Positions 661 to 63,799 of a DNA stretch of 64,000 bases are shown piece by piece. This DNA comes from Branchinecta lynchi. Its lineage: Eukaryota > Arthropoda > Branchiopoda > Anostraca > Branchinectidae. The stretch covers positions 5,270,001 through 5,334,000 of the forward strand of contig JAKZAP010000011.1 in NCBI GenBank assembly GCA_023053575.1. Direction: 5' to 3'. Both the position numbers and the translations under genes were made by a program. Under the pieces are notes generated by a model. That model made no database searches and was not told the origin of the DNA. It saw nothing but the letters and a program-made list of their open reading frames with translations. How positions within the stretch are numbered: position 1 is the first letter of the stretch; every line of letters begins with the position of its first letter.

Positions 661-2015
661 AAATCACTTTTCGGGATCCAAAACGTAAGATAAGATAGAT
701 AAGATAAGATTTAATTGCACAAAAAAGCCAAAAGGCCATGGCAACAAGATAAACAAAACAAAAAATAAAGAACAAAGATCTATACCGTAACCTACTTACT
801 CTAGGCATAATTTTCGGTGTTGAAAAGCGACCCTGAGGAATCTTGCCAGCCTCCTCACATCACCAAACTGCCGGCTACCAATCATACTACACATCCATTC
901 CTCATCGAACACCCTCACGCATTCTCCGAACACTTCATTCCTTAACTCTCTTAATTCTTCACATTCACACATGACATGCACCACACTTTCATTCTCATCT
1001 CCACACATTGGACAGGAGAAATACTGACCAGAACGTTCGGAAGAACTTCCAATATATGTTCTTCTTCTCCCAAGCGGTAAACAATCTGCCCTGAGACACC
1101 ACACCAACTTTACTTCCTCCTTTTTTAAAAACACCTTGAAAAATATTTCCTCCCCCCACACCTCTTTAGCCTTAGCATAATACCTCAATGAATGTGACAG
1201 ATCCTTTGCAACCTGCCAACTCTGAATTTCTTGGTCTAAAAGCCTAGCCTCCACCTCTTTTTTTTATTTTTCCCAATTGCAAACCAGGACCTACGCCATC
1301 ATTCCACCACATTGACAATCCACAACCATCTAAAATACATCTTATTTGTGAAGACCACGAATCTATTCTAGTATCTAAAATACTCTCTTTATAAGCCGCC
1401 TTGAAGATCCTTACTCTCGGCAGCATCAAAATCTTTTCCCAAAAACCTATCATAGCTACCCATCTATGTCTACGCATGCTTGCTAAACCTAAATCCCCCT
1501 TACCTACTAATGAATTCATTTTTTTCACTAACCCCTAAAATTCTTTTGAAATAACTGGTGGAGGGAAACCTATGACTTAGTAAAAGTTGCCCGTCGGTCT
1601 GTAAGCACGATAACTCTCGAAGGGAATGGGTTCTTGGTGTGAGGATTCTTTCGGTCAGGGGAAAGGTCGAGTTCGTAGATAGACTCCATAGCTATATATT
1701 TAGGGAAGGGGGCCGGAGGGGTTTCAAACTAAGGGGCGAAATAAAATATTTTTAAAAGCTTATAAAATATTCGATTTAGAGGTAAGGAGGCATGCTGAAC
1801 ATGAAATTTATTTTCTCGCCGGAGAAGTAGTTCAACCGGAATCCGACAAAATTCGGGAAATTTGTGAAAGTAAAAGTTGAATCTCAAGTTGATTCGATGT
1901 ACGACTCTCAGGTAAGAGGACATGCTGAATCCGAATATTAAAATTATTTTTTGGCCGGACAGGTAGTTCGCCCGTAATCCTGAAGTTTAGCCTGAAATTT
2001 AAGAACCCGATGGAG
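661..2015 (+). repeat. Family A repeat copy split by a LINE insertion
   Basis: The left end is the family A terminus GGGATCCAAAACGTAAG (663-682). The next family A motif, GTGGAGGGAAACC, resumes near 1558. Between them lies a 5'-truncated LINE. The right portion runs through the usual CTGTAAGCACGATAACTCT block, the TCGAGTTCGTAGAT block and two roughly 120-bp internal repeats (GACATGCTGAA, CGGACAGGTAGTTCG), then fades near 2015. Both sides of the insertion point match uninterrupted copies such as 48716-49768, which makes the insertion reading firm. Confidence 0.75.
683..1555 (-). pseudogene. Non-LTR retrotransposon (LINE), 3' end, 5'-truncated and frameshifted
   Basis: Read on the minus strand, two overlapping frames (about 1528-1244 and 1254-796) make the C-terminal part of a LINE ORF2. 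The upstream part has the GKGDLGLASMRRHRWVA motif typical of the region after the reverse transcriptase. The downstream part has a Cys/His cluster (CPMCGDENESVVHVMCEC) and ends with the segment LARFLRVAFQHRKLCLE before a stop. The frame changes near 1250, so the copy is dead. The 3' untranslated tail ends in an (ATCTT)-type microsatellite at 683-715, next to GTTTTGGGATCC. Related C-termini are at 47.7, 54.3 and 54.8 kb. The exact LINE clade is not determined. Confidence 0.8.
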
Positions 2016-5416: not shown

Positions 5417-6690
5417 TGGGATCCCAGAACGTAAGTAGGTAGGTAGGTAGGTAGGTAGTTTTTATTTATAACAAATTTAACCAACTTCTAACAAACAACG
5501 CAAATGCCTCACGACATACTTAAGCGCGTAAATTAACTCCAATAAAAGAAAAATAACCGTCTTAACCTAGCCTAAACAAAATAAATAAGTGGAGGGATAC
5601 CTATGACATCGCAAAAGTTGTCCGTCTGTCCGTCCGTCTGTAAGCACTATAACTCTCGAAGGGAATGATATATTTGGATGAAACTTGGTGTGAGGATTCA
5701 ATGGGTCGTTGGACCAGTCGAGTTCGTAGATGGGCTTTGTAGCCCAACATTTAGGGGTGGGGGTTCAAATTAAGGGGCAAACAAAATATTTTGAAACAGC
5801 TAATGTGATAGTCGATTATGGGGTAAGAAGACATGCTGAGCACGATGGTGAAAACCATTTTGTCATCGGACAAGTAGTTCGTCCGGAATCCTGCCAAAAC
5901 CGGAAAGTTTGTCAAAAGTAGAATTTTTACTTGAAGTTGATTAGATGTTCGATTAGGGGTGGGAAGACATACTGAAGACGACGGTGAAAACCATTTTCTC
6001 GACGGACAAGTAGTTCGCCCGGAATCCGGCCCACACCGAAAAGTTTGTTAAAATTAAAAGTTTTATTTGGAGTTGATTAGATGTTCGATTTAGGGCAAGA
6101 AGACATGCTGAACACATAATGTGAAAACAATTTTCTACCCGGACATGTAGTTCGCCCGGAATTCGGCTAAAACCGGAAAATGGTTAGAAGTTCAAGTTTT
6201 ATTTCTAGTTGATTAGATAACGGATTTAGGGGTAAGAAGAGATGCTGAATCCGTGTGTGACAATCGTATTTTACCCGGACATATAGTTCGACCGGAATCC
6301 GGCTGGAGTCGGAAAATTTGTTATACGTTAGATTTTTATTTGAAGATGTTCAGTATTGGGGGAAGACGGTACCCTGAGTTAGTTTTTGAGCTTTCTTTTT
6401 TCGCCGGACAATTAGTTCCGGAGTTCGGACGAAACCGAGAAGTTGGCAGAAGTGGCAGGAAGTTTTCGTCAAAACAGATATGACTTATAGGGGTAAATAC
6501 ACATGCTTAATCCATATCTGAACTTGGTTTTCTCAGATGATTAGCTATTTGGCCTTAATCTGTTTCTGAATTTTAATTGTAACAATGTTCAAGGAGTCTG
6601 GCGATGACGGGATCTGGCTAAGACAAGACCCTGTTGTCTGGATCATTTTTGGGATCCCATCGAAACCTTTGGCCTTATTTTGTTGGTAAC
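5417..6690 (+). repeat. Family A repeat, near full length, split by a LINE tail
   Basis: The left terminus TTTGGGATCCCAGAACGTAAG is at 5416-5439. After an inserted LINE tail the copy resumes with TGGAGGGATACC at 5589. It then shows the CCGTCTG run, the GAACTCTCGAAGG-type block, the GTGGGGGTTCAAATTAAGG block, four to five roughly 125-bp repeats each containing GACATGCTGA and CGGACAAGTAGTTCG, and the right terminus TTTGGGATCCCATCGAAACC near 6650-6675. There is no shared ORF. This copy and 48716-49768 best show the full layout. Confidence 0.8.
5440..5588 (-). mobile_element. LINE 3' tail, 5'-truncated, inside family A
   Basis: On the minus strand this reads as a short 3' untranslated region with TTGTTATAAATAAAAACTAC followed by (CTAC)n, then the family A sequence TTACG. 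It is bounded by ACGTAAG on the left and TGGAGGG on the right, the same two boundaries that flank the LINE at 683-1555. No coding part remains. Confidence 0.75.
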
Positions 6691-16130: not shown

Positions 16131-19100
16131 CGAGGCCAATGCCCCATCCTTAGCCTTCGCCAATACACAGCACATCTAGCAACAGCTATACTTTGCCAAA
16201 CGAATTTCGTGATTAACGGATTAAAGACGTAGGTGAACTACCATCCTTTGCCCGAACCACCACACGACATATTTCCTCTGCCTTCTTAATTAACGCATTA
16301 AAGACGTGCATGATATACCACCCTTTGCCTGAACCACCAAACGACATATCTAGCCACAACTATCCTCTGCCTTTGTGATTAACGCATTAATGACTTGGAT
16401 GATTTACCATCCTTTGCCCGAACCACCACACGACACATCTAGCCACAACTATCCTCTGCCTTCGTGATTAACGTATTAAAAATGTGGATGCTATACCATC
16501 CTTTGCCCAAACCACCACGCGGCATATCTAGCCACAACTATCCTCTGCCTTCCAGATTAACGCATTAAAGACGTGGATGATATACCATTCTTTGCCCGAA
16601 CCACCAAACGACAAATCTAGCCACAACTATCCTCTGCCTTCGTGATTAACGCATTAAAGACATGGATGATATACCATCCTTTGCCCGAACCACCGAACGA
16701 CACATCTAGCCAGAACTATCCTCTGCCTTCGTGATTAACGCATTAAAGACGTGGATGATATACCATCCTTTGCCCGAATCACCATATGACATAACTAGCT
16801 ACAAGTATCCTCTGCCTTCGTGATTAACGTATTAAAGACGTGGATGATATAGCATCCTTTGCTCGAACCACCACACGACAAATCTAGCCACAACTATCAT
16901 CTGCCTTCGGCATTAACGTATTAAAGATGTGGATGCTATACCATCCTTTGCCCAAACCACCACGCGGCATATCTAGCCACAAATATCCTCCGCCTTTCAG
17001 ATTAACGCATTAAAGACGTGGATGATATACCATTCTTTGCCCGAACCACCAAACGACAAATCTAGCCACAACTATCCTCTGCCTTCGTGATTAACGCATT
17101 AAAGACATGGATGATATACCATCCTTTGCCCGAACCACCGAACGACACATCTAGCCAGAACTATCCTCTGCCTTCGTGATTAACACATTTAAAACGTGGA
17201 TGATATACCATCCTTTGCCCAAACCACCACGCGGCATATCTAGCCACAACTATCCTCTGCCTTCCTGTTTAACGCATTAAAGACGTGGATAATATAGCAT
17301 CCTTTGCTCGAACCACCACACGACATATCTAGCCACAACTATCATCTGCCTTCGTCATTAACGTATTAAAGATGTGGATGCTATACCATCCTTTGCCCAA
17401 ACCACCACGCGGCATATCTAGCCACAGCTATCCTCTGCCTTCCAGATTAACCCATTAAAGACGTGGATGATATACCATTCTTTGCCCGAACCACCAAACG
17501 ACACATCTAGCCACAACTATCCTCTGCCTTCGTGATTAACGCATTAAAGACATGGATGATATACCATCCTTTGCCCGAACCACCGAACGACACATCTAGC
17601 CAGAACTATCCTCTGCCTTCGTGATTAACACATTTAAAACGTGGATGATATACCATCCTTTGCCCAAACCACCACGCGGCATATCTAGCCACAACTATCC
17701 TCTGCCTTCCTGTTTAACGCATTAAAGACGTGGATGATATACCATCCTTTGCCCGAACCACCGAACGACACATCTAGCCAGAACTATCCTCTGCCTTCGT
17801 TATTAATGCATTAAAGACGTGGATGATATACCATTATTTGCCCGAACCAGCACACAACACATCTAGCCAGAACTATGCTCTGCGTTCGTGATGCCTTCGT
17901 AGGATACCATCCTTTGCCCGAACCACCAAACGACACATCTAGCCACAACTATCCTCTACCTTCGTGATTAACCCATTCAAGACGTGGATGATATACCATC
18001 CTTTGCCCGAACCAGCACACAACACATCTAGCCAGAACTATCCTCTGCCTTCGTGATTAATGCATTACAGACGCGGATGATATACCATCCTTTGCCCGAA
18101 CTACCACATGAAATATTTAGCTACAACTATCCTCTGCCTTCGTGATTAACGCATTTAAGACGTGGATGATATACCATCCTTTGCCCGCACCAGCACACAA
18201 CACATCTAGCCAGAACTATTCTCTGCCTTCGTGATTAATGCATTACAGACGTGGATGATATACCATCCTTTGCCCGAACTACCACATGAAATATTTAGCT
18301 ACAACTATCCTCTGCCTTCGTGATTAACGCATTTAAGACGTGGATGATATACCATCCTTTGCCCGCACCAGCACACAACACATCTAGCCAGAACTATTCT
18401 CTGCCTTCGTGATTAATGCATTACAGACGTGGATGATATACCATCCTTTGCCCGAACTACCACATGAAATATTTAGCTACAACTATCCTCTGCCTTCGTG
18501 ATTAACGCATTTAAGACGTGGATGATATACCATCCTTTGCCCGAACCACCACACGACACATCTAGCCACAACTATCCTCTACCTTCGTGATTAACCCATT
18601 CAAGATTAGGATGATATACCATCATTTGCCCGAACTACCACATGAAATATTTAGCTACAACTATCCTCTGCCTTCGTGATTAACGCATTTAAGACGTGGA
18701 TGATATACCATCCTTTGCCCGAACCAGCACACAACACATCTAGCCAGAACTATTCTCTGCCTTCGTGATTAATGCATTACAGACGTGGATGATATACCAT
18801 CCTTTTCCCGAACTACCACATGACATATCTAGCTACAACTATCCCCGCCTTCGTGATGAACGCATTTAAGACGTGGATGATATACCATCCTTTGCCTGAA
18901 CCACCACACGTCTACCTTCGTGATTAACGCATTAAAGAGGTGGATGATATACCATCCTTTGCCCGAACCACCACACAACACATCTAGCCAGAACTATCCT
19001 CTGCCTTCGTGATTAATGCATTACAGACGTGGATGATGTACCATCCTTTGCCCGAACGACCACATGACATATCTAGCTACAACCATCCTCTGCCTTTGTG

Positions 19101-21740
19101 ATTAACGCATTTAAGACGTGGATGATATACCATCCTTTGCCCGAACCACCACAAGACATATCTAGCCGAAACTATCCTCTGCCTTCATGATTAACGCATT
19201 ATAGATGTGGATGATATACCATCCTTTGCCCGAACCACCACAAGACATATCTAGCCGCAACTATCTTCTGCCTTCGTGATTAACACATTAAAGACGTCGA
19301 TGATATACCATACTTTGCCCGAACCACCCCGCGACACATCTAGCCACAACTATCCTCTGCCTTCGTGATTAACGCATTAAAGACGTGGATGACATACCAT
19401 CCTTTGCCCGAACCACCACACAACACATCTAGCCAGAACTATCCTCTGCCTTCGTGATTAATACAGTACATACGTGGATGATATACCATCCTTTGCCCGA
19501 ACTACCACATGACATATCTAGCTACAACTATCCTCTGCCTTCGTGATTAACGCATTTAAGACGTGGATGATATACCATCCTTTGCCCGAACAACCACAAG
19601 ACAGATCTAGCCGCAACTATCTTCTGCCTTCGTGATTAACACATTAATGACTTGGATGATTTACCATCCTTTGCCCGAACCACGACACGATACACTAGCC
19701 ACAACTACCCTCTGCCTTCGTGATTAACGCATTAAAGACGTGGATGACATACCATCCTTTGCCCGAACCACCACACAACACATCTAGCCAGAACTATCCT
19801 CTGCCTTCGTGATTAATACATTACATACGTGGATGATATACCATCCTTTGCCCGAACCACCACAAGACATATCTAGCCGCAACTATCTTCTGCCTTCGTG
19901 ATTAACACATTAATGACTTGGATGATTTACCATCCTTTGCCCGAACCACAACACGACACACTAGCCACAACTACCCTCTGCCTTCGTGATTAACGCATTA
20001 AAGATGTGGATGATATACCATCCTTTGCCCGAACCACCACACAACACATCTAGCCAGAACTATCCTCTGCCTTCGTGATTAATGCATTACAGACGTGGAT
20101 GATGTACCATCCTTTGCCCGAACGACCACATGACATATCTAGCTACAACTATCCTCTGCCTTCGTGATTAACGCATTTAAGACGTGGATGATATACCATC
20201 CTTTGCCCGAACAACCACAAGACATATCTAGCCGCAACTATCTTCTGCCTTCGTGATTAACACATTAATGACTTGGATGATTTACCATCCTTTGCCCGAA
20301 CCACGACACGATACACTAGCCACAACTACCCTCTGCCTTCGTGATTAACGCATTAAAGACGTGGATGACATACCATCCTTTGCCCGAACCACCACACAAC
20401 ACATCTAGCCAGAACTATCCTCTGCCTTCGTGATTAATACATTACATACGTGGATGATATACCATCCTTTGCCCGAACCACCACAAGACATATCTAGCCG
20501 CAACTATCTTCTGCCTTCGTGATTAACACATTAATGACTTGGATGATTTACCATCCTTTGCCCGAACCACAACACGACACACTAGCCACAACTACCCTCT
20601 GCCTTCGTGATTAACACATTAAAGATGTGGATGATATACCATCCTTTGCCCGAACCACCACACAACACATTTAGCCAGAACTATCCTCTGCCTTCGTGAT
20701 TAATGTATTACAGACGTGGAGGATACACCATCCTTTCCCCGAACCACCATATGACATATCTAGCTACAAGTATCCTCTGCCTTCGTGATTAACTTATTAA
20801 AGACGTTGATATAGCATCCTTTGCCCGAACCACCACACGACATATCTAGCCACAACTATATTCTGCCTTCGTGATTAACGCAATAAAGACGTGGATGATA
20901 TACCATCCTTTGGCCGAACCACCACACAACACATCTAGCCAGAACTATCATCTGCCTTCGTGATTAACGCATTAAAGACGTGGATGGTATACCAACCTTT
21001 GCCCGAAACACCACACGACACATCTAGCCACAACTATTCTCTACCTTCGTGATTAACGCATTAAAGGCGTGGATGATATACCATACTTTGCCCGAACCAC
21101 CACGCGACACATCTAGCTACAACTATCCTCTGCCTTCGTGATTAACGCATTTAAGACGTGGATGATATAGCATCCTTTGCCCGAACCACCACACGACATA
21201 TCTAGCCACAACTATCTTCTGCCATCGTGATTAACGCGTTAAAGTCGCGGATGATATACCATCCTTTGCCCAAACCACCACACGACATACCTAACCACAA
21301 CTATCCTCTGCCTTCCTGATTAACGCATTAAAGACTTGGATGATATACTATCATTTGCCCGAACCACCACACGACAGATCTAGCCACAACTATCCTCTGC
21401 CTTCGTGATTCATACATTAAAGACGCGGATGATATACCATCCTTTGCCCAAACCACCACAAGACACATCTAGCCGCAAGTATCCTCTGCCTTCGTGATTA
21501 ATACATTTATGACGTGGATGATATACCATCCTTTGCCCGAACCACCACAAGACACATCTAGCCGCAACTATCCTCTGCCTTCGTGATTAATACATTTAAG
21601 ACGTGGATGATATACCATCCTTTGCCCGAACGACCACATGACATATCTAGTCACAACTATCCTCTGCCTAACGCCACAAATCTATCCTTTGCCTAACGCC
21701 ACAACTATCCTTGCCCAGACACGCGGATGACATACCATTC
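16131..21740. repeat. Satellite array, 89-bp monomer, about 63 copies
   Basis: The monomer runs CCATCCTTTGCCCGAACCAC, CACACGACACATCTAGCCAC, AACTATCCTCTGCCTTCGTG, ATTAACGCATTAAAGACGTG, GATGATATA. Anchors at 16318, 16407 and 16496 give a period of 89. Divergent units lie at both ends; at 21.66-21.74 kb only short TATCCTTTGCCTAACGCCAC pieces remain. Higher-order repeats are visible: a 178-bp dimer with GAACTACCACATGAAATATT starts at 18098, 18276, 18454 and 18632, and a seven-monomer block repeats 621 bp apart (19588 and 20209). Stop codons close all frames because 89 is not a multiple of 3, so it is not coding. Confidence 0.95.
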
Positions 21741-22202: not shown

Positions 22203-22303
22203 ATGTCGGGCATGAAGCAAGTGGTGACAGTACTTCTAGTAGTTTTTGCCTTGGCGTTTGCAGTTCTAGCAAACCCAGCGTGGCCAAAGCGGAGGGACTG
22301 CAG
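22203..22303 (+). CDS. elevenin: Elevenin-type neuropeptide precursor, coding exon 1
   Basis: This exon encodes residues 1-33 plus two bases of codon 34. I chose the ATG at 22203 because it opens directly onto a signal peptide: MSGMKQ, then a hydrophobic core (VVTVLLVVFALAFAVLA), with likely cleavage after A23. NPAWP and the dibasic KR (29-30) follow, then RDC with the first cysteine of the mature peptide at residue 33. The exon ends TGCAG/GTAAGC, a good donor in phase 2. A second in-frame ATG (residue 4) could also serve. The longer upstream reading frame has no signal-peptide character. Joined to the exon at 33442, the peptide matches the elevenin (Aplysia L11) family, a secreted neuropeptide acting on a G-protein-coupled receptor. 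Confidence 0.85.
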
Positions 22304-22506
22304 GTAAGCCCTGTTGCCTATTTAGGTGGAAGTTAGGATCCGCTAAAGTCGTGCCGACGTTACCTTCCGGTAACGCCTTGCACCCCGAAGCTAGGGGAAG
22401 TTTTCACGTGGATCGCTCTGGTCCCCAACGACCTCCCGTCCAGCTCGACGGACATTTTCTCGTGGATACCGTCGGTCTTTTTGTCAGTTTCGGGTGAACG
22501 GATGAG

Positions 22507-23070
22507 CACGTGAACAGGCCATACAGCTCGTTCGACGCCTCCCGTTCAACGCCTCTCCGAGGGCAGCGTTCAGCTGAACTAGGATACCATGTGGACCTTC
22601 CCACTCATATGCTCCCATCCAGTTGAATGGGCATTTTCGCGTGGACGGAACCCATCTTCCTCAGTCGTCCAACGACCCGATCGATTTTCTCATTTTCGCG
22701 TAGACGGGATCACCCGTTCAGATCTACAGCCATCCAAGTGAAAACTTGCCCCTAATCGCTAAAACAATAGAAAACATGTTCTGGAACCAAAGTCGACTAT
22801 GGGGACGTTTTCGCGTTGATGGCTGTAGAGCTGAACGGGTAACCCCATCCACGCAAAAATCAGAAAATCGATTGGGCGTTGAACGGCCGAGGAAGATGGG
22901 TTCCGTCCACGCGAAAATTCCCATTCAGCTGGATGGGAGCATATCAGTGGAACGTTCTAATTTTGTCTGTTATTAATCTGTCCAGACCTTTTTTCTATCC
23001 ATCTCAACGCTCCCCTCGGAGCTGTGTTGAGCGGGAGGCGTCCATCGATTTGGATGGCCCATTCACCTAT
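22507..23070. repeat. Inverted repeat / foldback element in intron 1
   Basis: The left arm, about 22507-22740, and right arm, about 22800-23068, are approximate reverse complements. The inner 125 bp are the best match: CATATGCTCCCATCCAGTTG to TCTACAGCCATC, against GATGGCTGTAGAGCTGAACG to GGATGGGAGCATAT. The outer parts pair GACGCCTCCCGTTCAAC with GTTGAGCGGGAGGCGTC. The TTTTCGCGTGGA motif is repeated within each arm. ORFs here are mirror shadows of the arms. Confidence 0.75.
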
Positions 23071-23745
23071 TCCCCCATACCCAAAAAAAAACACAGATAT
23101 GTAAAGCACGCCTCGCACTATTTACTGTTTCCGTAAAATTATTCCACAACTGTTGAATACTTTAAAACGAAGTACTACTTTAAATAACTTTTCCATGGCT
23201 TTCACCGTCTTAATCCTTTCTGCTGGCCCACTGACTTCAAGCAGAAACAGGGAAATTTACATAACCGGTTACTCTCACCGAGCGAGATTTTCCTAGACAG
23301 TCGTCGGAAGCATGCTCCGTGGCGAAAATAGGGACACACGGTAAGTGTCAAAATCACTGAGTTTTCATTAGGGGGGTTGAGGTATAAGATATCAAATTCG
23401 GATCTCCGGGTTTAAGACCAGACGGACAGATTACGGAAGTACTGGTTCTGCTGGAGAATTTTAAGATATTTGTCGACGTTAAACTCAGCTCTGTTTTCAA
23501 CACATTACAAATAGCTCCGGCTGTTCTTAGCTCCAGGCTTCGACGACAGACGCTGGAAAAATTTGCATAGCCGGTCTTCTGACCAATGAACTTCTCGGGA
23601 ATTGAATTATAATCCCTTAGTACCATGCATCTCAAAAAAAGGCAAACACATCAAGCCTCAAATCATTGTGCGTCCGAACGGTCCAAAAAGGTGATGTGTG
23701 TCACCCTAAGAAATGCGAATCTTGAAAGTTAACAAATTCAGTGAT
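23071..23745. other. No gene recognised
   Basis: A minus-strand ORF of 93 codons (23354-23635) is open, but it lacks a domain, signal peptide or splice context I can defend. Confidence 0.35.
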
Positions 23746-23749
23746 TCGC

Positions 23750-23800
23750 TGACACAAAACAAACAAGAGCTGGAAGCTGATATGGCACTTGTAAGGCTAG
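23750..23800. repeat. Family B terminal fragment
   Basis: AACAAGAGCTGGAAGCTGAT then ATGGCACTTGTAAGGC matches the terminus AACAAGAGCTCATATGGCAC found at 25853 and 57790. The rest of the repeat is absent. Confidence 0.6.
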
Positions 23801-23924
23801 TTCAAAGGATCAAATATAGATTTTGCTTTTCCATGGGTTTGTTCTAATCATTTGTTACATTGTCGTTGTGTTGTGAGTTGTGAGAGTTAATATTGCACTC
23901 TGACGTCTTTCTTATATTTTCTTT

Positions 23925-24085
23925 GTTTACTCCATCTAGGTCCTACTGGGCCAATGTTTATAGACAGTAAACTTTTTCTTTTGTTCGTTAACACTGGACA
24001 AAAACAAACAAATATTACATTTTCCTACCATGGCCCGACGGGCTTTTTGGAAATAAATTCATTCATTCATTCATTCATTCATTTG
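23925..24085 (+). mobile_element. LINE 3' tail with (ATTC)n
   Basis: The stretch contains GGCCCGACGGGCTTTTTGG, then AAATAAATTC and six ATTC units. The pattern 'TATGGCCCATGGGC...AAATAAA + microsatellite' is shared with the LINE tails at 54.5, 55.1 and 47.9 kb. The coding part is not recognisable. Confidence 0.65.
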
Positions 24086-24289
24086 TTCAGCACGGTTATC
24101 TTATTTTCCCCGCAACGCTCAGCCCAGTGGTGCAAGTCTGAGGGAAGATCAGTTATTAATTCGCGTTTTTACAACACGTACCATTTTGAAAAGAACACAA
24201 ACGAAGAGACATGTGACTCGAAAACCAAAATGCAGAAGAACCTCTACCCTTTGGACAACCCAATCAAACAGCATAACAGCAGCTCTAAT

Positions 24290-24350
24290 AAAATGTAGCC
24301 GATTTATTCTTTTTGCACCGTCAAATATGATTCGCAGTCACCTTGGGCTG
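24290..24350. repeat. Hairpin-family flank fragment
   Basis: It contains TTTTTGCACCGTCAAATATG, ATTCGCAGTCACCTTGGGC and TGAAGGAATAT, the flank of the hairpin family seen at 53.37-53.41 kb. Only one side is present. Confidence 0.6.
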
Positions 24351-24479
24351 AAGGAATATCTGGACCATATTCTACGTGGTAACAGCAAGATCAAACACAA
24401 CGCAACGCACCCATCTATTGAAGTGGTTCCCAATCTTTTCCGTACGGCGTACCCCTAAGCCAAAGTTACGGCATAGACC

Positions 24480-24625
24480 CTTGAGAGAAGAAAGATCATG
24501 GACTTGAAAATCACGAGAATGTATCGCTCGGTAAAAAGTATTTTATTGCTAGAACTTAATTTGTCAGCAAAACCTTTGAGGCAAAAATGATAATGGACTC
24601 ATAGAAATCATGAAAATGTATATGT
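24480..24625. repeat. Fragment of the AATCACGAGAATGTATCG repeat
   Basis: Two imperfect units share ATCATGGACT, AATCACGAGAATGTATCG, CAGCAAAACC and TTGAGGCAAAAATGATAATG. The same unit is tandemly repeated at 55345-55800. Confidence 0.6.
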
Positions 24626-25089
24626 TGCTTAAAGGACACCTGAATGAAGAGTACCAAGTATCATCCCTGTCTGTATGACTTCCGTTAACATTGCCTGCAG
24701 AAAACCTAATCCAAATACGAAATAGTGTTTCCAAGCTGTGATTTTTGCTCCACTTTGCACCTGTCCTTATTTCAGTACCGAACAATTTTAGAAACCCTTT
24801 TAAACCAATTTTATCAACCCTTCTTATGGAATATTTTTTTATCAGTTAAGCCCAAACGTATATCTAGAAGAAATTCCAACACGATCCGGCCAGCGCTGTA
24901 CAAGATTTGAATGAATTGCGCTTTTTGTCTTGGAGTCTGCATATGTAAACCTCCAGAAACGAACATCCATACTTTGAAAACGTCACGCTAAGGAGAAGAA
25001 TGCTCTCCCTGGCCATGTTTGTAAATGTATTCTCCATGGTGTGTTCAAGTATGGTTTCATTGTTCAGGTGTCCTTTAAAAGTATTTTCT
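24626..25089. other. No gene recognised
   Basis: This is AT-rich spacer. AAAGGACACCTGAATG (24632) and its inverse CATTGTTCAGGTGTCCTTT (25059-25077) flank about 430 bp, so this may be an old TIR element, but no other copy is seen. Confidence 0.4.
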
Positions 25090-25885
25090 TACTTTGCGGT
25101 CAAGATTGGTACTTTAAGGAATAGTCGGATTTGGGAAGTGGCGATTTCTAAGCCAATCTTGTCGGATCTGTAACATTCCAGCCAAGTTTCGTCGTCTTAA
25201 CCCATCTGGAAGTACTTTAACTCGCGATCACCGGCATTCTGGACCCCTTGCCACAGCAACCCCCCCCCCCCCAGTGGCCGGAGCCAATCCGGTTCTGTAA
25301 ATGATTTATCTAGAGCGTCTGTTTGATATTCCCACAAAGTTCTATCCCGATCTCTCCAGTCTAAGCGGGTCACGTATTTTCCGGTCCCCCCAGTAGTTGT
25401 CGGACCGGGTCCAGACATGAAAACATCACCGGAGACGTGTCCCCTGTTCAAGCATAAAATTTCATTGGAATCCTATCACCTGTTCCAAAGCTACGCATGA
25501 CTAAATATTCCGGATACCCCTCCCTCCACTCCCCTCACGATGATCGGATCGAGGAGTCAGTTTGATAGGATTCTTGATATGCCTGCCAAGTTTCGTCGTG
25601 AAAAGCACCGAGACCACCATCACCGAAATTCCATACCTCCCCCCCCCCCCCCCGAAGTGTCCGGTTTCAGTCCGATTGTGTAGACGATATTCATCTAGAG
25701 CAGATGCTTGTTCTTCTCAGCCAGTGTCACTCCGATCCCTCCATTCTAACCGTTTCTCGAGATTTCCGACCCCCCCCCCCCCGCTCCCCCATAGCTGTCG
25801 AACGGTCTGGACTTCAAACGGGATATGAGATGCGAGACCTGTGCGCTAAGATAACAAGAGCTCATATGGCACTTGTTACGAGTGG
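25090..25885 (-). repeat. Family B repeat
   Basis: It starts with TTACTTTGCGGTCAAGATTGG, the same sequence in inverse as at 10150-10170 in the first copy. It includes CCAAGTTTCGTCGT blocks, C runs, TGTCGGACCGGGTCC, CGATCCCTCC and the terminus AACAAGAGCTCATATGGCAC TTGTTACGAG at about 25853-25883. It has no conserved ORF. A family A copy begins 25 bp further on. Confidence 0.75.
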
Positions 25886-25907
25886 ATGGTCAAGAAGCGC
25901 CCTCAAC

Positions 25908-27020
25908 AACAAGACCAAAGGTGTCGATGGGATTCCAAAAATCTAAGATTTGATCCAGACAATTGGGTCTTGTCTTCGCCAGATCCATTCTTCGCCAGGC
26001 TAATCATCAAAGAAAACCGAGTTCAGACATTCAATCTATCTATCAATCTATACCTCTATAGGCCATATCTATTTTGACGATACTGACCGAAACTTCCTGC
26101 TTTACTTCTGCCAAATTTGCGGTTTCGCCCGAATTCCGTGCGAACTATAGTCAAGCAAAAAAAGAAAGTTCAGAAACGAATCCAGCGTATCTCCTTATCC
26201 CTATGAAGAACATGTAATCAGCATTAAATAAAACTCTGACTTAAAAAAAATGCGGGTACAACCGGATTCCGGACTAATTATATGTCCGGATAAATAATGA
26301 TTGTCATATACAGACTCAGCGTCTCTTCCTACCCCTAAATCTAACATCTAATCAACTTCAGATAAAACTTTTGCTTTTGACATATTTTCCGGCTTTGGCC
26401 GGATTCCAGGCGAACTAGTTTTCCGGCGAGAAAATGGTTTTCAACATCGTGTTCAGCATATCTGCTTACCTCTAAATCAAACATTTAATCAACTTCAAAT
26501 TAAACTTTTACTTCTAACCAACTTTCCGGTTTTTGCCGGATTCCGGACGAACTACTTGTCCAACGAGAAAATGGTTTTCATTATCGTGTTCAGCATGTCT
26601 TCTTACCCCTACATCAAAAATTTAATCAACTTGAAATGAAACTTTTACTTTTAACAAACTTTCCGTTTTTTGCCGGATTCCGTACGAACTACTTGTCCGG
26701 CGAGAAAATGATTTTCACCATCGTGCTCAGCATGTCTCCTTACCCCATAATCGACTATCACATTAGCTGTTTAAAAATATTTCGTTTGTCCCTAAATTTG
26801 AATCCCCTAAACCCACCCCCAAATTTAGGGCTACAGAGCCCATCTACGAACTCGACCTTACCCTTGACCCAAACAATCCTCACACCAAGTTTCATCAAAA
26901 TATCTCATTCCCTTCGAGAGTTATCGTGCTTACAGATGAACGGACGGACAGACGGACGGACGAACAACTTTTGCTATGTCATAGGTATCCCTCCACTTAC
27001 GTTTTGGGATCCCAAAAAGG
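25908..27020 (-). repeat. Family A repeat, full length, minus orientation
   Basis: The left terminus is AACAAGACCAAAGGTGTCG and the right terminus is GTTTTGGGATCCCAAAAAGG (27000-27019). About six internal units carry CCGGATTCCG, CGAACTACTTGTCC, GGCGAGAAAATG and CAGCATGTCTTCTTACC. An ACTCGACCTTACCCTTGACC block follows, then GGACGGACAGACGGACGG. This is the least interrupted minus-oriented copy. A 146-codon ORF across it is not conserved in other copies. Confidence 0.85.
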
Positions 27021-27179
27021 ACTTCTTTTTTAATTCGATTTTTTTGCGCCGTCAGTTTGGTATGTACTACCGTTAGATATCCGAATTCGAACAACCTCAT
27101 TTCCTTCAAGCGAGCAGCGAAAGGTCATTACAGGAAATTTGTTTAGTATTATTCTCCTTTAGACCCCCCTCCCCCGTTT

Positions 27180-27225
27180 TTCTTTTGTTTTCTTTCTTTC
27201 TTTCTTTCTCGTTCCTTCTTTCCCT
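27180..27225. repeat. (TTTC)n microsatellite
   Basis: TTTTCTTTTG leads into four to five tandem TTTC units with a pyrimidine-rich surround. Confidence 0.8.
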
Positions 27226-27349
27226 TATTTTCTCTCTCCTTTTATTTAAAGTTAGAACCATAGATTATTTTTTTTTCCTCTCATTCCTGTTTCATTAAAT
27301 AGAATATTCAGCTAGTAGGTTCTGTCTGGTGTTTAAATTAATACAGGTT

Positions 27350-27475
27350 ATTTCCCTGCCTTAGCCAAGCACTACATTTCTGCTTTCCTGGCAGGAATGT
27401 AAATTGTGTATTGTTTTGTCTTTAAATATAGTCCAATGAAACTGAAATGAAAAAATGAAACTGAAAGTAGATGAG
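27350..27475 (+). mobile_element. LINE-like 3' tail
   Basis: The stretch TTGTCTTTAAATATAGTCC is followed by AATGAAACTGAAATGAAAAA and a second AATGAAACTGAAAG. It looks like a 3' tail with a degenerate AATGAAAC repeat. No coding region is visible. Confidence 0.45.
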
Positions 27476-27479
27476 AACG

Positions 27480-28830
27480 TCACAAAACCCCCGTCATCCA
27501 AAATATGGTTCGGACCTATAAATAGGATATATACTTCCTATTTCCTATATAGTTCTCCTATAGTCTGAGCATATCCGGCATCACGTTATATCATCTGTGG
27601 CAAATGATTTTTCTACCTCCGAAGTTTCAACCCAGTAGATCCATAGGTTTGGTCCCTAGACGTGCTACACGATTTCAGGTACCCCTTCCTACTCCTTCTA
27701 CCGCACCCGAATCCGGTTTGGACTCCAAAATGGAACATCTAAAGCATTTTATCTTACCAACTATCAAGTTTCACTTGAAGGTATGGTCCCCCCCCACACC
27801 GTGGTCGGATCAGATTTGAGCCCCAAAGTAAGTCATCCAGGGCATATGATCCGTCTACATTCCAAGTATCATCCAAACCCCTGCACTATTCAACCCCTAT
27901 GCGAGCCACAACATTTCTGAGATTCCCCTTTCAACTCCTCCACTGTGGTCGAATACGACTCGGAACTATAAATGTCGCATCTCTGACATCTCCTATTCCT
28001 GTCCGTCAGGTTTGACTGGAATCGGAGCATATCCTATCTGCAAATTGCCCGCTACAACCCCCCCCCCCCACACACACCTTGGTTGGATCTGTTCCGGACG
28101 CAAAATAAAAAATCAAAGCCGCAAAAACTCGGTAGCCTACTCTCCAACTTGCATCCCATTCTGTCCATCCGTATGGTTGTCAAAAAGTTTCCGGACCCCT
28201 CCCCCCCCCATCAACAGTGGCCGCATGTGGTTCAAACGCATGTTTTGCTTGTCTAAGTCATCAGTTTTTATCACCGCGAAATTTTATTCGAATCGGACCA
28301 CCCGTTCGGAACTTACGGAATTCCTTCAACTCCACCAAAGATGGTTGGATCCAGGAACAGAATTTTTTCTAGGGCATTGTGTTAAAGTCACTAATATGCC
28401 TGCAAAGTTTCATACTAAATGGCGATCACAGGATTTCTGGCAAAGACCCTCCAACTCCGCCCCCAGGACCCCGATCTGGTTCTGTCGATTACATATCTGG
28501 GGCTAGTGCTTGTTCTTCCCACCAAGTTTGATGCCGATCCCTCCACTCTAAGCGTTTCCAAAGATTTCCGGTTCCCCCCTCCAACTCCCCCAATGTCAAT
28601 GGATCCTGTCCTGATTTAAAATGGGAAGTCTGAGGCACGAGGTCTTTCTAAATATCAAGTTTCATTTAAATCCCATCACCTGTTCAATAACTAGCTCAGC
28701 CATTATATTACGAATCCATCCCTCCACTTCCCCCACGATGGTCAGATTGAAGAAAGTACATTCTCAAGTCAATCTATTCGGGTCCCTGACAGGCCTGCCA
28801 CATTTCATCGTCCTAGCACATTAGGAAGTA
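27480..28830 (+). repeat. Family B repeat, plus orientation, diverged
   Basis: It includes repeated CCAAGTTTCATCC-type blocks, CCCCTCCACTCCC-type pyrimidine blocks, the GGATCTGTTCCGG and GGTCGGAT motifs, CTAAATATCAAGTTTCATT and finally TTCATCGTCCTAGCACATTAGGAAGTACC near 28825. About five units of 250-290 bp are discernible. ORFs are pyrimidine-rich and not shared with other copies. Confidence 0.65.
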
Positions 28831-28839
28831 CCGACAGGG

Positions 28840-29200
28840 ACGTCGCAAGTGCATTTTCGTTGGGGGGGGGGGGGGGGGGGGGGCAAAAGTCTTACCGAAT
28901 CTCTCACAAATTTTATCGGCAACGCGAAAGACGATAGGCCAACTATTAGGCGGCGTTTTGGCGAAGCCCATTTAGAGAATATATTGCCGGGCACGATTAC
29001 AGTATCAGCTTCTATCTATTATACCCAAGTGAAAATTAAATCGAGCGCCACAGACGAAAATGAACTCCAATTTTTGTTTGTTTCCTGTAGGCTAAAATTT
29101 AACGGCTGCTCTTGCAAATGCTACCATTTGCGGTGGATTAAATACCGAGACTATTAGAAGTTCAAGAAACCGACGGAGCGACGTTCCAGCAGCAGCAGCT
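28840..29200. repeat. G-tract interspersed repeat
   Basis: GGGACGTCGCAAGTGCATTT precedes a run of about 22 G (28861-28882), then unique sequence ending near the GAGCGCCACAGACGAAAATG motif. The general layout (GGGGCGTC-like start, G run, GAGCGCCNCAGGCGAAAAT) matches 11.64-12.06 kb and the C/G runs at 57.1 and 63.9 kb. Confidence 0.5.
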
Positions 29201-29411
29201 TCTGCGGTCTAGTCAATATTACCCATAAACACATACAGTGAGCGCCGGAGTCGAGATTCTTTTTCAATCCTGCCAAATTTAACTATTTCCATCCAGATTC
29301 TAGCTTTCAATGTTTCGAAATCCCAGTCCTAAAACTGGTTTAAAACCCCAGTCAAAATTAAGCGCCCTTCCACAAAACAGAGAATATTACGAAAAGAGCC
29401 GCAGGCAGAAT

Positions 29412-30178
29412 TTTCGGGGATCGACTAAACCAGGAAGGGAAGGGAACACGAGAGAAGCAGGAAGGCATACTAAAACCAGGAAGGGCATACTAAAACGAGG
29501 AAGGGCATACTAAAACGAGGAAGGCTGTCGTCAGAATTCGCCGCACCTTTCCTTTCCTCTATTTAGTGTTCTTTGAGGGGTTGGCAACTTTCGAATTCAA
29601 AGTTCACCTTTCCTCCCTCGCTTTAGTATCCTGACATTGGGTAGGCATTAAGTTCATTGAGGGGTCGATAACTATAAAAATTATAATTCTCCTTTTCATT
29701 TCTCGTTCTGACGGAAGGCGACAAAAATCCTCCGAGTCCAGAGAGGGGTCGGCAACCAAGATATTTCAAGTCCACCATTTCCTTCCTCGTTTTAGTACCT
29801 TGAAAGTACTAAAACAAGGAAGGAAATAGGAAATTATTATCCTTTGCAACTCGGCAACTAAAATCCGTTGCCTACCCGACCCCTCGCTGGACTCAGAGGA
29901 TGTTAGTCGCCTATACCGTCAGAACGAGAAATGAAAAGGTGAATTACAATTTTATATTTGCAGACCCCTCACTGAAGATAATGCATATCCATGTCAGGAT
30001 ACTAAAACGAGGGAGGGATGGTGAACTTTGAATTTGAAAAGTTGCCGACCGAAAAGTTGCGATGTGGCCAATTCTGGCGACAGCCTTCTTCGTTTTAGTA
30101 GCCCTTCCTGGTTTTAGTACGCCTTCCTGCTTTTCTGGCGTTCCCTTCTCTTCCTGGTCTTAGTCGATCCCGAATTTC
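29412..30178. mobile_element. Foldback element with GGGATCGACTAAA ends, about 760 bp
   Basis: Long inverted ends: the left runs GGGATCGACTAAACCAGGAA, AGGCATACTAAAACCAGGAA and AAAACGAGGAAGG; the right mirrors them (CTTCGTTTTAGTAGCCC, TTCCTGGTTTTAGTACGCC, TCTTAGTCGATCCC). Inner arms (29575-29810 and 29820-30060) also pair, around ACCTTGAAAGTACTAAAACAAGGA. AATTTTCG lies before it and GAATTTCG after it, a plausible degenerate 8-bp duplication. The terminal motif is shared with the small MITEs at 3.8, 39.0 and 43.4 kb. There is no transposase. Confidence 0.8.
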
Positions 30179-30195
30179 GAAACATATATGATTAA

Positions 30196-30965
30196 ACCTT
30201 CTTTTTGGGATTCAGAAAGTGAGGACTGGCGATGAATCATAGATCAGTCCTCTTGTCTGCAACCAGTGCTTTCACTGGACCTCTTCCGAGTTTGCTGTAA
30301 CTCCAGAAGCCTGGCAACTATACCGAATAAATGACCGAATTCCAGTTAATATACCGAATAAGTTTAGACCGATAGCATGTTAAGCAGGCGGAATTTTCAA
30401 AACATATATGATTAGACCTTCTTTGAAATCATAGATCAGTCCTTTTGTCTGCAACCAGTGCTTCACTCGACCTCTTCCGAGTTTCGTGGCAACTGCAGAA
30501 TCCTGGCAACTATACCGAATAAATTACCGTATCCCGGTTATTACACCGAATTGTTTTGGAGTCGAAAGACTACCGAAAAATACTCGTATTCGGGTTAATT
30601 TCGTCGAAACTGGAGCAAAAGCCGGAATTCGTGGTAATTACCGTATCCTGAAAGGTATACCGAATCCCAATCATGATACCGAACTGGACCGATAGCTTAT
30701 CCGGGATTCTGTGTAGCTACCGAATCTCCATAAATATAACGAATAATCCTGGCATCGAAAAATGACCAAATAATTATAGTAAATTCTCTCACCCAATTCG
30801 GGATAACTACCGAATGCTGGCAATTACACCAAATCCCGATCAGTATACCGAATAGATTTGTACCGATATCCTATTTGGGATTCTGTATTACTACAAAATC
30901 CCCGTAAATATACCAAATAGTTTTGCTGCCGAAAAAATACCGAACAATTTTAGTAAAGTTTTGGG
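30196..30965. repeat. TACCGAAT-rich repeat region
   Basis: ATACCGAAT or near variants occur more than twenty times with irregular spacing. A larger segment is tandemly duplicated: ATCATAGATCAGTCC, TTGTCTGCAACCAGTGCTT and CCTCTTCCGAGTTT occur at about 30235-30320 and again at 30428-30510. It may be the inside of one repeat whose unit is 'TACCGAATCCCGATCAGTA'. No gene. Confidence 0.65.
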
Positions 30966-31029
30966 CCTCCGGTCCAAAGTTTTACCGAATCTCAAAAAGT
31001 TGCGGGGAGGGTCCCCGAGTTCCGAACTC

Positions 31030-31962
31030 ACGGTATCACTAGAAATTCGCCCCCCCCCCCCCTGCCCAATCTCCCCACAGTGACCGGATCCGGTCCGGTT
31101 GTGTCATTCACGTATTTAGGACTTGTGGTTGTTCTTCCCACCAAGTTTCATCCCGGACCCTCCACTCTAAGCGTTTCCCGAGATTTCTGGTTCCCCCCTC
31201 CAACTCCCCCTAATATCACCGGATCCGGTCAGGATTTGAAATGGGGCGTCTGAGACACGAGGCCTTTCTGTATATCAAGTTTCATTAGATACGATCACCT
31301 TTTTGTAAGTTAAATACCTCACTTTTACGGATTCCCCCTACTTCCACCCCCATCCCCCCAAAATGTTCGGAGTGGGGAAATGACTATTCTCAAGTCAATC
31401 TGTTCGGGTCCCAGACACGCCCCCCAAATTTCATTGTCATAGCACATCAGGAAGTATAGAACTGGAGGTATCACTAGAAATTTGGACCACTCCCCCCCAA
31501 CTCCCCCAAAGTGATCGGATCCGGTCCGGTTATGTTAATCACGTTTCTAGGACTCGTGCTTGTTCTTTCCACCAAGTTTCATCCCGATCACTCTAAGTGT
31601 TTCCCAAGATTTTCGGTTCCCCCCTCCAGCTTCTCCCAATGTCACCGGATCCGGTTTGGATTTAAAGTAGGACGTCTAAGATACGAGGTCTTTCTATATA
31701 TCAAGTTTCATTAAGATCCTATCACCCGGTCGTTAAAAATACCTAATTTTTTCGAATTCCGCCTCCCACCACTACCCCCTCCCCCAGATGGTCGGATGGG
31801 GAAGTGACTATTTCCAACTTAATCTGGTCGGGTCCGCGATGGCTGCCAAGTTTCATCGTCCTGGCCCGAACCAGCAAAACCGGGTCGAGAGACAGGCGGA
31901 CTGACAGAAATTGCGATTGCTAAATGGCACTTGGACGAAGGATAAGTGCTATAAAACCACTA
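31030..31962 (+). repeat. Family B repeat, plus orientation
   Basis: Two to three units carry GTGACCGGATCCGGTCCGG, TTCCCACCAAGTTTCATCCC, ACTCTAAGCGTTTCCC, CTCCAACTCCCCC, CTATATATCAAGTTTCATTA and GGAAGTGACTATT. The end is CTGACAGAAATTGCGATTGC then TAAATGGCACTTGG. The repeat spacing is about 400 bp between the two GGATCCGGTCCGGTTNTGT sites (31086 and 31516). Confidence 0.8.
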
Positions 31963-32700
31963 GGGGAACTACGATAAATAATCACAGAGTCTGACGTAGC
32001 AAGTTGTTTGAATTTCCTAAGTCGACCTATTTATAAAAGCTTGGAAACAGAAGATTTGAGAAAGGCCTAAAGTGAGTAAGTCTTTTGAGGGACAAATAGG
32101 GTATGATCATATTTTAGGAGAATTTTATTTTCCTTTTCTCCTGTTTTTGCAATTGCCGGAACAGGCGGTAAACAGACCGATCAATAGGTACTTCCTAAAG
32201 CCACAGTTCGTAGTGTTAACCTCGTCAATGTGTAATTTGCAATAGGGGAGCTCGGGGTTGACACGGACACTAATTTTTCTTTTCTTGCTAGGCCGCCAAT
32301 TCTTGGCGGATTTACATCATTTTTGTTGTCAAACGTGTAGAATGTCTGAGGGAATAGCTGGTATTTTTTCAGATTTTCTTCTACATCATATTTTTTAGTA
32401 AATACTTTTTTCTGTTTTTCAATTTGTCCACCAACCACGTACCCATGGGGTTGATTCGGACAAGCTCCGGGTTGGTTCGGTTATTATATTTAATGTAATA
32501 TTTTTTAATCGACTTTATTTGAACATGTGAAAAAGTGGAAATTTATATTGCACCTCAAAAGTATATACAAAACTAAAGTTAACACATGTTTCAATAGCCG
32601 AGGTTGCATTAAAGTTAAAATCCTTTTACTTTCAGTTAACCTAGCAATCCCAGGGGCTGGCAACTTCAAACTTATGTAAGTAAAGATTCTACAGAAATAT
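31963..32700. other. No gene recognised
   Basis: This is AT-rich spacer. The minus-strand ORFs at 32181-32438 and 32505-32714 carry no recognisable domain. Confidence 0.35.
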
Positions 32701-32704
32701 GATT

Positions 32705-32890
32705 TTAGTCCCACTATTGTGCAGAAAGAATATATTCAAGCCCCCCAATGGGTTTCCTTTCAACGAACCTCCCTTCCAGATATTATATGTTTATGTGTGT
32801 ATATTTATGTGTTTTATTTACTTTCTTCATTTACTCCGCTTTCTGAAAACGGCGGGTTATAAATAAATTACTTACTTATTACTTACATTG
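32705..32890 (+). mobile_element. LINE 3' tail
   Basis: The stretch has TCCGCTTTCTGAAAACGGCG, then GGTTATAAATAAATTACTTA and an (ACTT)n-like tail. 'GCGGGTTATAAATAAA' parallels GGTGGGTCATAAATAAA at 49.86 kb and GGCGGTCATAAATAAA at 61.85 kb. The coding part is not recognisable. Confidence 0.6.
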
Positions 32891-33204
32891 GTTTGACCTT
32901 TCCCCAAACTGAACTTCACAAGGACGAATTCGCGTTGTTTCACCTCCTTGAAAATATCGTAAATATTAAATTCAACTTTTTTTATTTTTTTGTATTTATT
33001 GTAGACAGTTCTACTAACTAAGTTTCTTTGGTTGTGGCCTATCCTTTTTAGCATTCATTTTCTCGATTTTGATAATTAATTCTGTTCACTAACAACACGA
33101 TAAGGATTCTGATAATATCTTTTGTATTTTTCTAACAAAGACTGTCCGAACAAACCCCACCCTCACTAAAATAACAAAATGGCGTACTCTACTACTTGCT
33201 GATC

Positions 33205-33270
33205 TCTTTTATTACTCGTGCCTACTGTGCCAAGCCGTGCCTTGCCGACCCTCTGTCTAGTCGATCCCAC
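33205..33270. repeat. Fragment of the GGATCGACTAAAA MITE family
   Basis: TTACTCGTGCCTACTGTGCC, AAGCCGTGCCTTGCC and CTAGTCGATCCC match the right part of the MITE at 39015-39253. Only one end survives. Confidence 0.55.
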
Positions 33271-33441
33271 CAGATGATGGATAACTAGACTGTCGTCTCT
33301 CAGCCCTTTCGGTCAAAATTTCAGCGGTATGCGATATATGCATTAGGGAATTTGTTTTGGTTGGAACATTGGCTAACGAAATCGTGTTAAAAAAATGTGA
33401 ATATAAACCCATGGGTAATTCTATATTTTTACTCTCTTCAG

Positions 33442-33546
33442 GCGATATGTTTTCGCACCTCTGTGCAGAGGCGTGATTTCAAAGAAGCGATCGGACTCTC
33501 CACCACTATTCAGCGCGGACCGAGACGAGCAAAGAAGTTCGACCAG
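33442..33546 (+). CDS. elevenin: Elevenin-type neuropeptide precursor, coding exon 2
   Basis: It is preceded by ATTTTTACTCTCTTCAG, a strong acceptor, and followed by GTAAGT. In phase 2 it completes R34 and continues RYVFAPLCRGVIS, then the KKR cleavage site (48-50), then SDSPPLFSADRDEQRSST. The mature peptide is predicted as RDCRRYVFAPLCRGVIS. It has cysteines at precursor residues 33 and 42, eight residues apart, and the FAPxCRGV core known from molluscan and annelid elevenins. It should form one disulfide ring. Reading through the donor would give a stop two codons later (TAA at 33548), so a 68-69 residue product without exon 3 is formally possible. Family precursors are usually longer, and the donor is strong, so I expect another exon. 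Confidence 0.85.
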
Positions 33547-33892
33547 GTAAGTTTGTTTAGATAGTGGTTACACTAAAATGATAGGACGCAATGAGTTTAC
33601 CCGTTGAAAAGGATGTCTAATGCTCCAGGAGGAGCGGTAGCAACTTACAGTTCGACGACTCGACGCAATCCGTAGCTCCCAAACTCCCCCACAAACCGCT
33701 TGAGTTCTTGCAGGAGTTGGTTCTAGCTTCCGGCTTTTCTCGGGGACTTGACTCGGGGAGCTAGCTGACATATCAAGAATGTACCCTGAGTTTATATCGA
33801 GAGTAAGAAAAATTCTCGTTACGACCATTCCAGTTTCCGGGCAGTTTCCGAGAATTTGACTTTTGAGTTTGTAGAAAAAAGCAAAAGGTTCG

Positions 33893-43387: not shown

Positions 43388-43645
43388 CGGGATCGACTAA
43401 AAAGAAGCACGGCACGGGACAGCATGTTGCAGGAGTCACGAGTAATAAAAACAGATTTGCAAGTAGTAGAAGTAGACAAGGAAGTGAGAGTTCGTAACTT
43501 TAAAGCCTAAATGAGGGCACGTTGAACATTGTTCCTGCCCCTCGCTTTGAAGCCTGAAAGGGCCCTTTTAGTTTTCCTGCCTCTTTTAGTGATCGTGCCT
43601 CCTACCCTATATCGTACAGTGCCGTGCCTCTTTTTAGTGGATCCC
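43388..43645. mobile_element. GGATCGACTAAAA-type MITE, hAT-like (copy 3)
   Basis: A 258-bp element is flanked by GAAGCGAG (43380-43387) and GAACCGAG (43646-43653), an 8-bp duplication with one change. The ends are GGGATCGACTAAAAAGAAGC and GCCTCTTTTTAGTGGATCCC. The inside matches the copies at 3782 and 39015. Confidence 0.9.
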
Positions 43646-43662
43646 GAACCGAGCTTTTTCAG

Positions 43663-43965
43663 AGGGAAACAGGGCAATTGCCACAGCAGACGAAGTTCGG
43701 CGACGTTAACAAAATATTTCCATATTTCACGATCCAGCGTTGGAGGACTGATATGAATCTTGCACGTCGCACCGGCTCTGTTTCTAAAACGTATATAGCG
43801 AAAATCCGTAGAAGTCGATCTTCGCTCAGCATTATGATCTCAACGGATGTTAGCTACGCAACTTACTTCAGCCAGGGCAAGCTAATACAATCAGACACTA
43901 AATATGTGGGATGGGGTCACTTTAACGTTAAAGGAAATGAAGTACTCTGTGTCAAGGAATCGTAA
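43663..43965 (+). CDS. Unassigned open segment, possible exon
   Basis: Immediately right of the MITE, an open stretch of about 100 codons starts after an acceptor-like AGCTTTTTCAG (43652-43662). It contains FPYFTIQRWRTDMNLARR, then KTYIAKIRRSRSSLSIMI, and ends ...VLCVKES with a stop, or alternatively with a donor (GAATC/GTAAGT) at 43963. Codon use is not obviously repeat-like and the stretch has no copy elsewhere in the window. I do not recognise a family. It could be an exon, a transposon remnant or chance. Confidence 0.2.
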   Translation, partial: RETGQLPQQTKFGDVNKIFPYFTIQRWRTDMNLARRTGSVSKTYIAKIRRSRSSLSIMISTDVSYATYFSQGKLIQSDTKYVGWGHFNVKGNEVLCVKES

Positions 43966-48715: not shown

Positions 48716-49768
48716 TTTGGGATCCCAAAACGTTAATGGAGGGATAGCTATGACATCGCAAAAACGTCCGCCTGTCCGTCTATCTGTAAGCACGATAACT
48801 CTCGAGGGGAATGAGATATTTTGATGAAACTTAGTGTGAGGATTCATTGGGTCAAGGGTAAGGTCAAGTTCGTAGATGGGCTCTTTAGCCCCACATTTAG
48901 GGGTGGGGGTTCAAATTAAGGGACAAACAAAATATTTTTAAACAGATAATGTGATAGTCGATTATGTGGTAAGAAGGCATTATGAGCACGATCTTGAAAA
49001 TCATTTTGTCGCCGGACCAGCAGTTCGTCCGGAATCCGGTAAAAACCGGAAAGTTGGTTAAAAGTAAAAGTTTTATTCGAAGTTGACTAAATGTTCGGTT
49101 CAGAGATAAGAAGACATGCTGAACACCATGGTGAAAACCATTTTCTCGCCGAACAAGTAGTTCGTCCGGAATCGGGCGAAAGCCGGAAAGTTGGTTAAAA
49201 GTAAAAGTTGCATTTAATGTTGATTAAATGTTCAATTTAGGGGTAAAAGGACATGCTGAACACGACGGTGGAAACCATTTTCTCGCCGAACAACTAGTTC
49301 GCCCGGAATCCGGCCAAAACTGAAAAATTTGTTAAAAGCAAAAGTTTGATTAGATGACAGATTAAGGGGCAAGACGAGAGGCTGATTCTATATATGACAA
49401 AAGATTTTTACTCAGAAATATAATTAGTCAGGAATCCAGTTGTAACCGGAATTTTTTTAAGTCAAAGTTTTATTTAAAGTTGATTATATGTTCGATAAGG
49501 AGATACGCTGGATTCGTTTCTGAATTTTCTTTTTTCGCTGGACTAGTAGTTCGCTCGGAATTCGGGCGAAACCAGAAACTTGGAAGAAGTAAAGCAGGAA
49601 GTCTTGGTCAGTTTCGTCAAAATAGATATGGCTTATAGAGGTATATCTGAACTCGGTTTTCTCGGATGATTAGCCTGGCGAAGATTGGATCTGGCGAAGA
49701 CCAGACCCAATTGTCTGAATAAAATATTAGATTTGGGATCCCATCGACACCTTTGGTCTTGTTTTTGT
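48716..49768 (+). repeat. Family A repeat, full length, plus orientation
   Basis: This is the best uninterrupted plus copy. The left terminus is TTTTTGGGATCCCAAAACG and the right terminus is GGGATCCCATCGACACCTTTGGTCTTGTT. In order it has GGAGGGATAGC, a CGTCCGCCTGTCCGTC run, CTCTCGAGGGGAATGAGATA, the GTGGGGGTTCAAATTAAGG block, and units of about 125 bp with AAGAAGACATGCTGAACACC and CGGACCAGCAGTTCGTCCGG. No ORF. Confidence 0.85.
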
Positions 49769-63795: not shown

Positions 63796-63799
63796 CAGG

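Follow-up and report, generated by a model that had tools for sequence, protein, structure and literature searches.

Two 5′ coding exons of a probable elevenin neuropeptide gene, separated by an 11.1-kb intron

An elevenin gene very probably has its first two coding exons in the window, by which we mean the whole 64,000-nucleotide stretch of DNA that was analysed. Elevenin is a small ring-shaped nerve hormone of invertebrates, and the initial annotation had proposed a neuropeptide gene of this type, a proposal that is supported here by the peptide core, a signal peptide, basic cleavage sites, the lack of an amidation Gly and a phase-2 intron inside the peptide. Reading from the sequence, we hold with high confidence that the locus is the 5′ portion of a functional protostome elevenin gene, covering two coding exons out of a probable three. 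The parts of the gene placed in the window are:

22203..22303, plus strand: coding exon 1, with the signal peptide, the NPAWP spacer, the KR site, the RDC start of the putative mature peptide and the first 2 nt of an Arg codon
22304..33441, plus strand: intron 1, 11,138 bp, phase 2, GTAAGC...TTCAG, interrupting the codon that follows the first Cys
33442..33546, plus strand: coding exon 2, encoding RRYVFAPLCRGVIS (its first R shared with exon 1), the KKR cleavage site and the start of the C-terminal flanking peptide, SDSPPLFSADRDEQRSST
33547..33552, plus strand: second phase-2 donor, GTAAGT after CAG (CAG/GTAAGT), closing exon 2

Exon 1 is 101 nt long and exon 2 is 105 nt long, and when joined they give a stop-free frame of 68 residues plus 2 nt whose translation reads MSGMKQVVTVLLVVFALAFAVLANPAWPKRRDC RRYVFAPLCRGVISKKRSDSPPLFSADRDEQRSST. 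Much of what had been claimed for these exons is borne out. The described 33-residue signal-peptide exon ending in KR-RDC is found as 33 codons plus 2 nt with the end PKR-RDC; the phase-compatible second exon does lie 11.1 kb away, across a GT...AG intron, and the joined frame stays open and reaches RRYVFAPLCRGVIS-KKR; and the spliced peptide contains both the Cys-x8-Cys spacing, at C33 and C42 of the joined frame, and the FAPxCRGV core, as FAPLCRGV. Splice sites were scored on the plus strand of the window with a simple consensus matrix, and by this measure the exon 1 donor ranks 4 and the exon 2 donor ranks 1 of 3329 GT sites, while the exon 2 acceptor ranks 10 of 3483 AG sites. The frame of exon 1 is open upstream to 21927 and holds a further in-frame ATG at 22014, 189 nt upstream of 22203. 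We take 22203 as the likely start codon, without certainty, because only 22203 or 22212 gives an N-terminal hydrophobic stretch.

The 8 residues that separate the two cysteines of the spliced peptide agree with the published elevenin spacing, and the residues listed as conserved in elevenins in PMC9963005 and PMC10175484 are present, namely the Asp before the first Cys and, around the second, the Ala-Pro before it and the Arg-Gly after it (DC...APLCRG). A signal peptide, recognised by composition only, is followed by a peptide that ends in KKR after GVIS, with no amidation Gly before the KKR in a precursor whose C-terminal part is missing. The C-terminal Ala19 of elevenin is given as 83% conserved among the sequences compared in PMC9963005, and a Ser stands at this position here; since conservation of 83% means that the residue is not invariant in the family, we have not taken it as defining. 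The Ser is nevertheless counted against the elevenin reading, as are the seven-residue spacer NPAWPKR that separates RDC from the likely signal-peptide cut, the doubt over the start codon and the unplaced third exon. The joined 68 residues matched no Pfam family at E ≤ 1, and the protein collection, which appears to be poor in animal proteins, yielded one word-sharing candidate and none at E ≤ 1. A PDB sequence search returned one chance match only, to an aquaporin (E 1.5); elevenin-Vc1 (PDB 8F04), at 19 residues, falls below the 20-residue limit of the tool.

That both exons are short and that the searched protein collection gave no homologue would fit a chance event, in which two unrelated short ORFs happen to join into an elevenin-like peptide. 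We consider this exceedingly improbable. When the Aplysia core RFVFAPACRGVSA, as given in PMC10175484, was scored against all six frames of the window, the exon-2 site scored 51 and the best site in any other frame of the window scored 23, and the score of 51 lies above every best score obtained when the window was shuffled 200 times with its dinucleotides preserved (mean 27.2, sd 2.9, maximum 37). Exon 1, moreover, is the sole candidate of its design. A search of both strands for ORFs of 20 to 70 codons running from an ATG to a Cys plus 2 nt and a GTRAG donor found a single donor in the window, at 22304, served by two in-frame ATGs (22203 and 22212), with zero ORFs of this design on the minus strand of the whole window. 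The hydrophobic core of exon 1 is 3.27 (Kyte-Doolittle, 12 residues); shuffled single strands contained 0.16 ORFs of the exon-1 design on average, and 0 of 300 held one whose core reached 2.4 or more, a threshold set once exon 1 had been seen. Published elevenin genes agree independently, both in having an intron within the peptide and in the phase of that intron, which further argues for a genuine elevenin gene over a chance join.

The gene structure does not depend on the peptide sequence and for that reason is the strongest test of elevenin identity. Elevenin genes are described as having a characteristic intron inside the peptide, which has been likened to the phase-2 intron of NPF (PMC6585902), and as well conserved in structure, with the intron in mid-peptide (PMC4237046). 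For the cone snail Lautoconus ventricosus, the elevenin gene is given as three exons with two phase-2 introns in PMC9963005; the genome paper cited there, PMC8152183, does not mention elevenin in its main text. Here we find, comparing published positions by description only, a phase-2 intron inside the peptide, with exon 1 stopping 2 nt into the codon after the first Cys. A second phase-2 donor, the top-ranked of all 3329 GT sites, is present as a structure like that of Lautoconus would require, and of the 37 candidates for the third exon none stands out. The initial annotation had also held that such an intron would hide the peptide from ordinary ORF searches; this is already in print for elevenin (PMC4237046, PMC6585902).

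A phase-2 intron 1 together with a second phase-2 donor after exon 2 implies that the gene as initially annotated is partial. The frame had been taken to end at 33546, and this part of the annotation does not stand: exon 2 contains no stop and closes at a consensus phase-2 donor. We set aside an unspliced end at 33546 (AGG TAA, 69-residue product), since a stop will be read at every phase-2 GTAA donor that follows AG and since no donor in the window ranks above this one. Downstream of 33546 we expect one or more additional coding exons, because the top-ranked donor of the window sits at 33547 and because the 68-residue precursor is shorter than published ones, which are given as 99-170 residues in Polyneoptera (PMC7179676) and 151 aa in Aplysia (PMC10175484) and which measure 113 and 122 residues in Raphitoma. 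We scanned 1782 AG sites on the plus strand between about 33,600 and 63,800 for third-exon candidates, which had to score 5.5 or more as acceptors and to open a phase-2 frame reaching a stop after 25 to 130 codons. Thirty-seven passed, 22 of them with less than 20% of their length in repeats, and none of the 37 was singled out, so that the third exon and its stop codon were not located in this interval on the plus strand. A shorter exon, or one itself spliced onward, would be missed by such a scan; the third exon may be shorter, may have another exon after it or may lie beyond the window.

The initial annotation described intron 1 as repeat-filled. Sequence that is repeated elsewhere in the window does cover 45.6% of it, but this is not special, the figure for the whole window being 43.9%, and with a repeat load so close to that of the window the intron is typical of its surroundings. 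Repeat cover reaches 53.8% upstream of exon 1 and 36.3% downstream of exon 2 and is 0% in both exons, and we count the repeat-free state of the two exons amid repeat-bearing surroundings in favour of the elevenin reading.

Several repeats were characterised in and around the intron. About 0.2 kb into intron 1 lies a nested fold-back (inverted) repeat (22510-23066) with arms of 67, 84 and 83 nt that are 79-88% complementary, and the intron also carries copies of dispersed repeat families. One dispersed family, which contains a tandem of 136-137 bp, is found at 5812-6345, 26316-26746 and 48970-49346; for its intron-1 copy, the three longest matches in the window are 79-83% identical and occur in both orientations. 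A tandem array at 57832-59124, consisting of 4.6 copies of a 281-bp unit, is about 67-82% identical to the intron 1 stretches 28447-28736, 31054-31351 and 31487-31934. Upstream of the gene, a satellite array at 16274-21669 repeats an 89-bp unit about 60 times, 178 and 267 bp being found as periods too; it has a strong C-over-G skew, and 533 bp lie between its end and the elevenin start codon.

Features of this kind could speak for a decayed or mis-assembled copy, one that descends from a true elevenin gene but has ceased to yield a working precursor by splicing: the satellite array stops 533 bp short of the start codon, intron 1 holds the fold-back element and dispersed repeats, and the plus-strand scan of about 33,600-63,800 found no third exon. 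Against this, both exons are free of frameshifts and stops, all three splice sites are in the top ten of the plus-strand GT or AG sites, and the peptide core is intact. We regard decay or mis-assembly as highly unlikely and prefer to read the locus as a functional elevenin gene.

The other ORFs of the window were surveyed by a Pfam comparison that covered 22 of the 27 stop-to-stop ORFs of at least 120 codons, including all 4 inside intron 1, and those 4 had no Pfam match. A reverse transcriptase (Pfam RVT_1) was identified at 60741-61703, above the curated cut-off (E 4.4e-19). Counting an ORF that overlaps it in a different frame (60406-60777) and has no Pfam family, the reverse transcriptase fragment spans 60406-61703; the fragment had 22 protein matches at E ≤ 0.001, the top one at 32% identity. 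A minus-strand Cornifin match at 62983-63921, likewise above the curated cut-off (E 2e-09), sits on a 24-bp tandem array, a minisatellite at 62940-63921 with long ORFs on both strands; the match is likely spurious, as both Cornifin and the array are short repeats. Three matches fell below the curated Pfam cut-off: zf-RVT (796-1263, minus strand, E 0.0047), NAR2 (43558-43962, plus strand, E 0.0076) and Cornifin (62826-63215, plus strand, E 0.011). Searches of the window for tRNAs and for Rfam families at gathering score found none.

Elevenins have also been recruited outside the nervous system, and a duplicated copy might, for example, have a part in the secretion of saliva or venom, as it does in conoidean snails. 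The salivary gland of Raphitoma has two elevenins, at about 35% identity, one of which is about 80% identical to a cone-snail form, and elevenin-Vc1 is described as present in venom (PMC9963005). No second copy is found in the window, where the best core score in other frames is within the shuffle range, and we judge a duplicate with such a use to be very unlikely at this locus.

For a neuronal elevenin, the course of events from transcription to reception can be proposed as follows. The transcript would be spliced across the 11.1-kb intron and then on to the third exon, and the precursor would enter the secretory pathway, where it would be cut at KKR and perhaps also at the KR before RDC. The two cysteines would close into a ring, and RDCRRYVFAPLCRGVIS, or a longer form keeping NPAWPKR, would be released as a neurohormone to act on an elevenin-type G-protein-coupled receptor. 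We allow for both mature forms because cleavage does not necessarily occur at a KR that lies just after the signal peptide, as described in PMC7179676, and the KR in question may stay uncut here. For Aplysia, disulfide-bridged elevenin is reported to activate three GPCRs with an EC50 of 1.2-25 nM, the unbridged form being inactive (PMC10175484). The roles of elevenin summarised in PMC9963005 are olfactory plasticity in C. elegans, cuticle melanisation in planthoppers and salivary secretion in ticks.

The gene is a genuine, ordinary member of the elevenin family, of a structure already described, and it offers little beyond annotation. One clean elevenin gene is added, in which both the splitting of the peptide by an intron and the phase of that intron follow the insect and cone-snail descriptions. 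Such agreement fits a gene structure that protostomes share by common descent, and the gene serves as a reminder that genes split within the mature peptide need a splice-aware search; neither point is new. Elevenin is named from molluscs, annelids, nematodes, arthropods and velvet worms in PMC4237046 and PMC9963005, and a paper on nemerteans, brachiopods and phoronids lists it among its abbreviations (PMC8557429). There is a slim chance that the source animal belongs to a phylum for which elevenin has yet to be reported, in which case the family and its phase-2 intron would be extended to a new protostome branch.

Compared by eye with Aplysia elevenin (L11 precursor; peptide RPRIDCTRFVFAPACRGVSA, as printed in PMC10175484), the peptide described here is identical at 11 of 16 residues from DC on. 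The two share Cys-x8-Cys, DC, VFAP and CRGV; from Aplysia to this peptide, T is changed to R, F to Y, A to L and the C-terminal SA to IS, and a KR site takes the place of the N-terminal RPRI-. The Aplysia precursor is 151 aa long, as against the 68 residues, incomplete, seen here. Oyster elevenins are described as showing little conservation even inside the mature peptide, and one printed sequence is without the first Cys (PMC4200219). The insect elevenins of PMC4237046, PMC6585902 and PMC7179676 likewise have an intron within the peptide, a KR or KKR C-terminal end and no amidation, and their peptide is likewise close behind the signal peptide (PMC7179676). In the Polyneoptera layout given in the last of these papers, the peptide ends at KR, RKR or KKR, is not amidated and directly follows the signal peptide, whereas here the NPAWPKR spacer intervenes, and the C-terminus reads CRGVAA in most polyneopteran taxa and CRGVIS here. 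With the elevenin gene of Lautoconus ventricosus, as its structure is stated in PMC9963005, the comparison is between two exons located here and three there; the two genes share two phase-2 intron boundaries, and hence three coding exons are expected in the gene described here.
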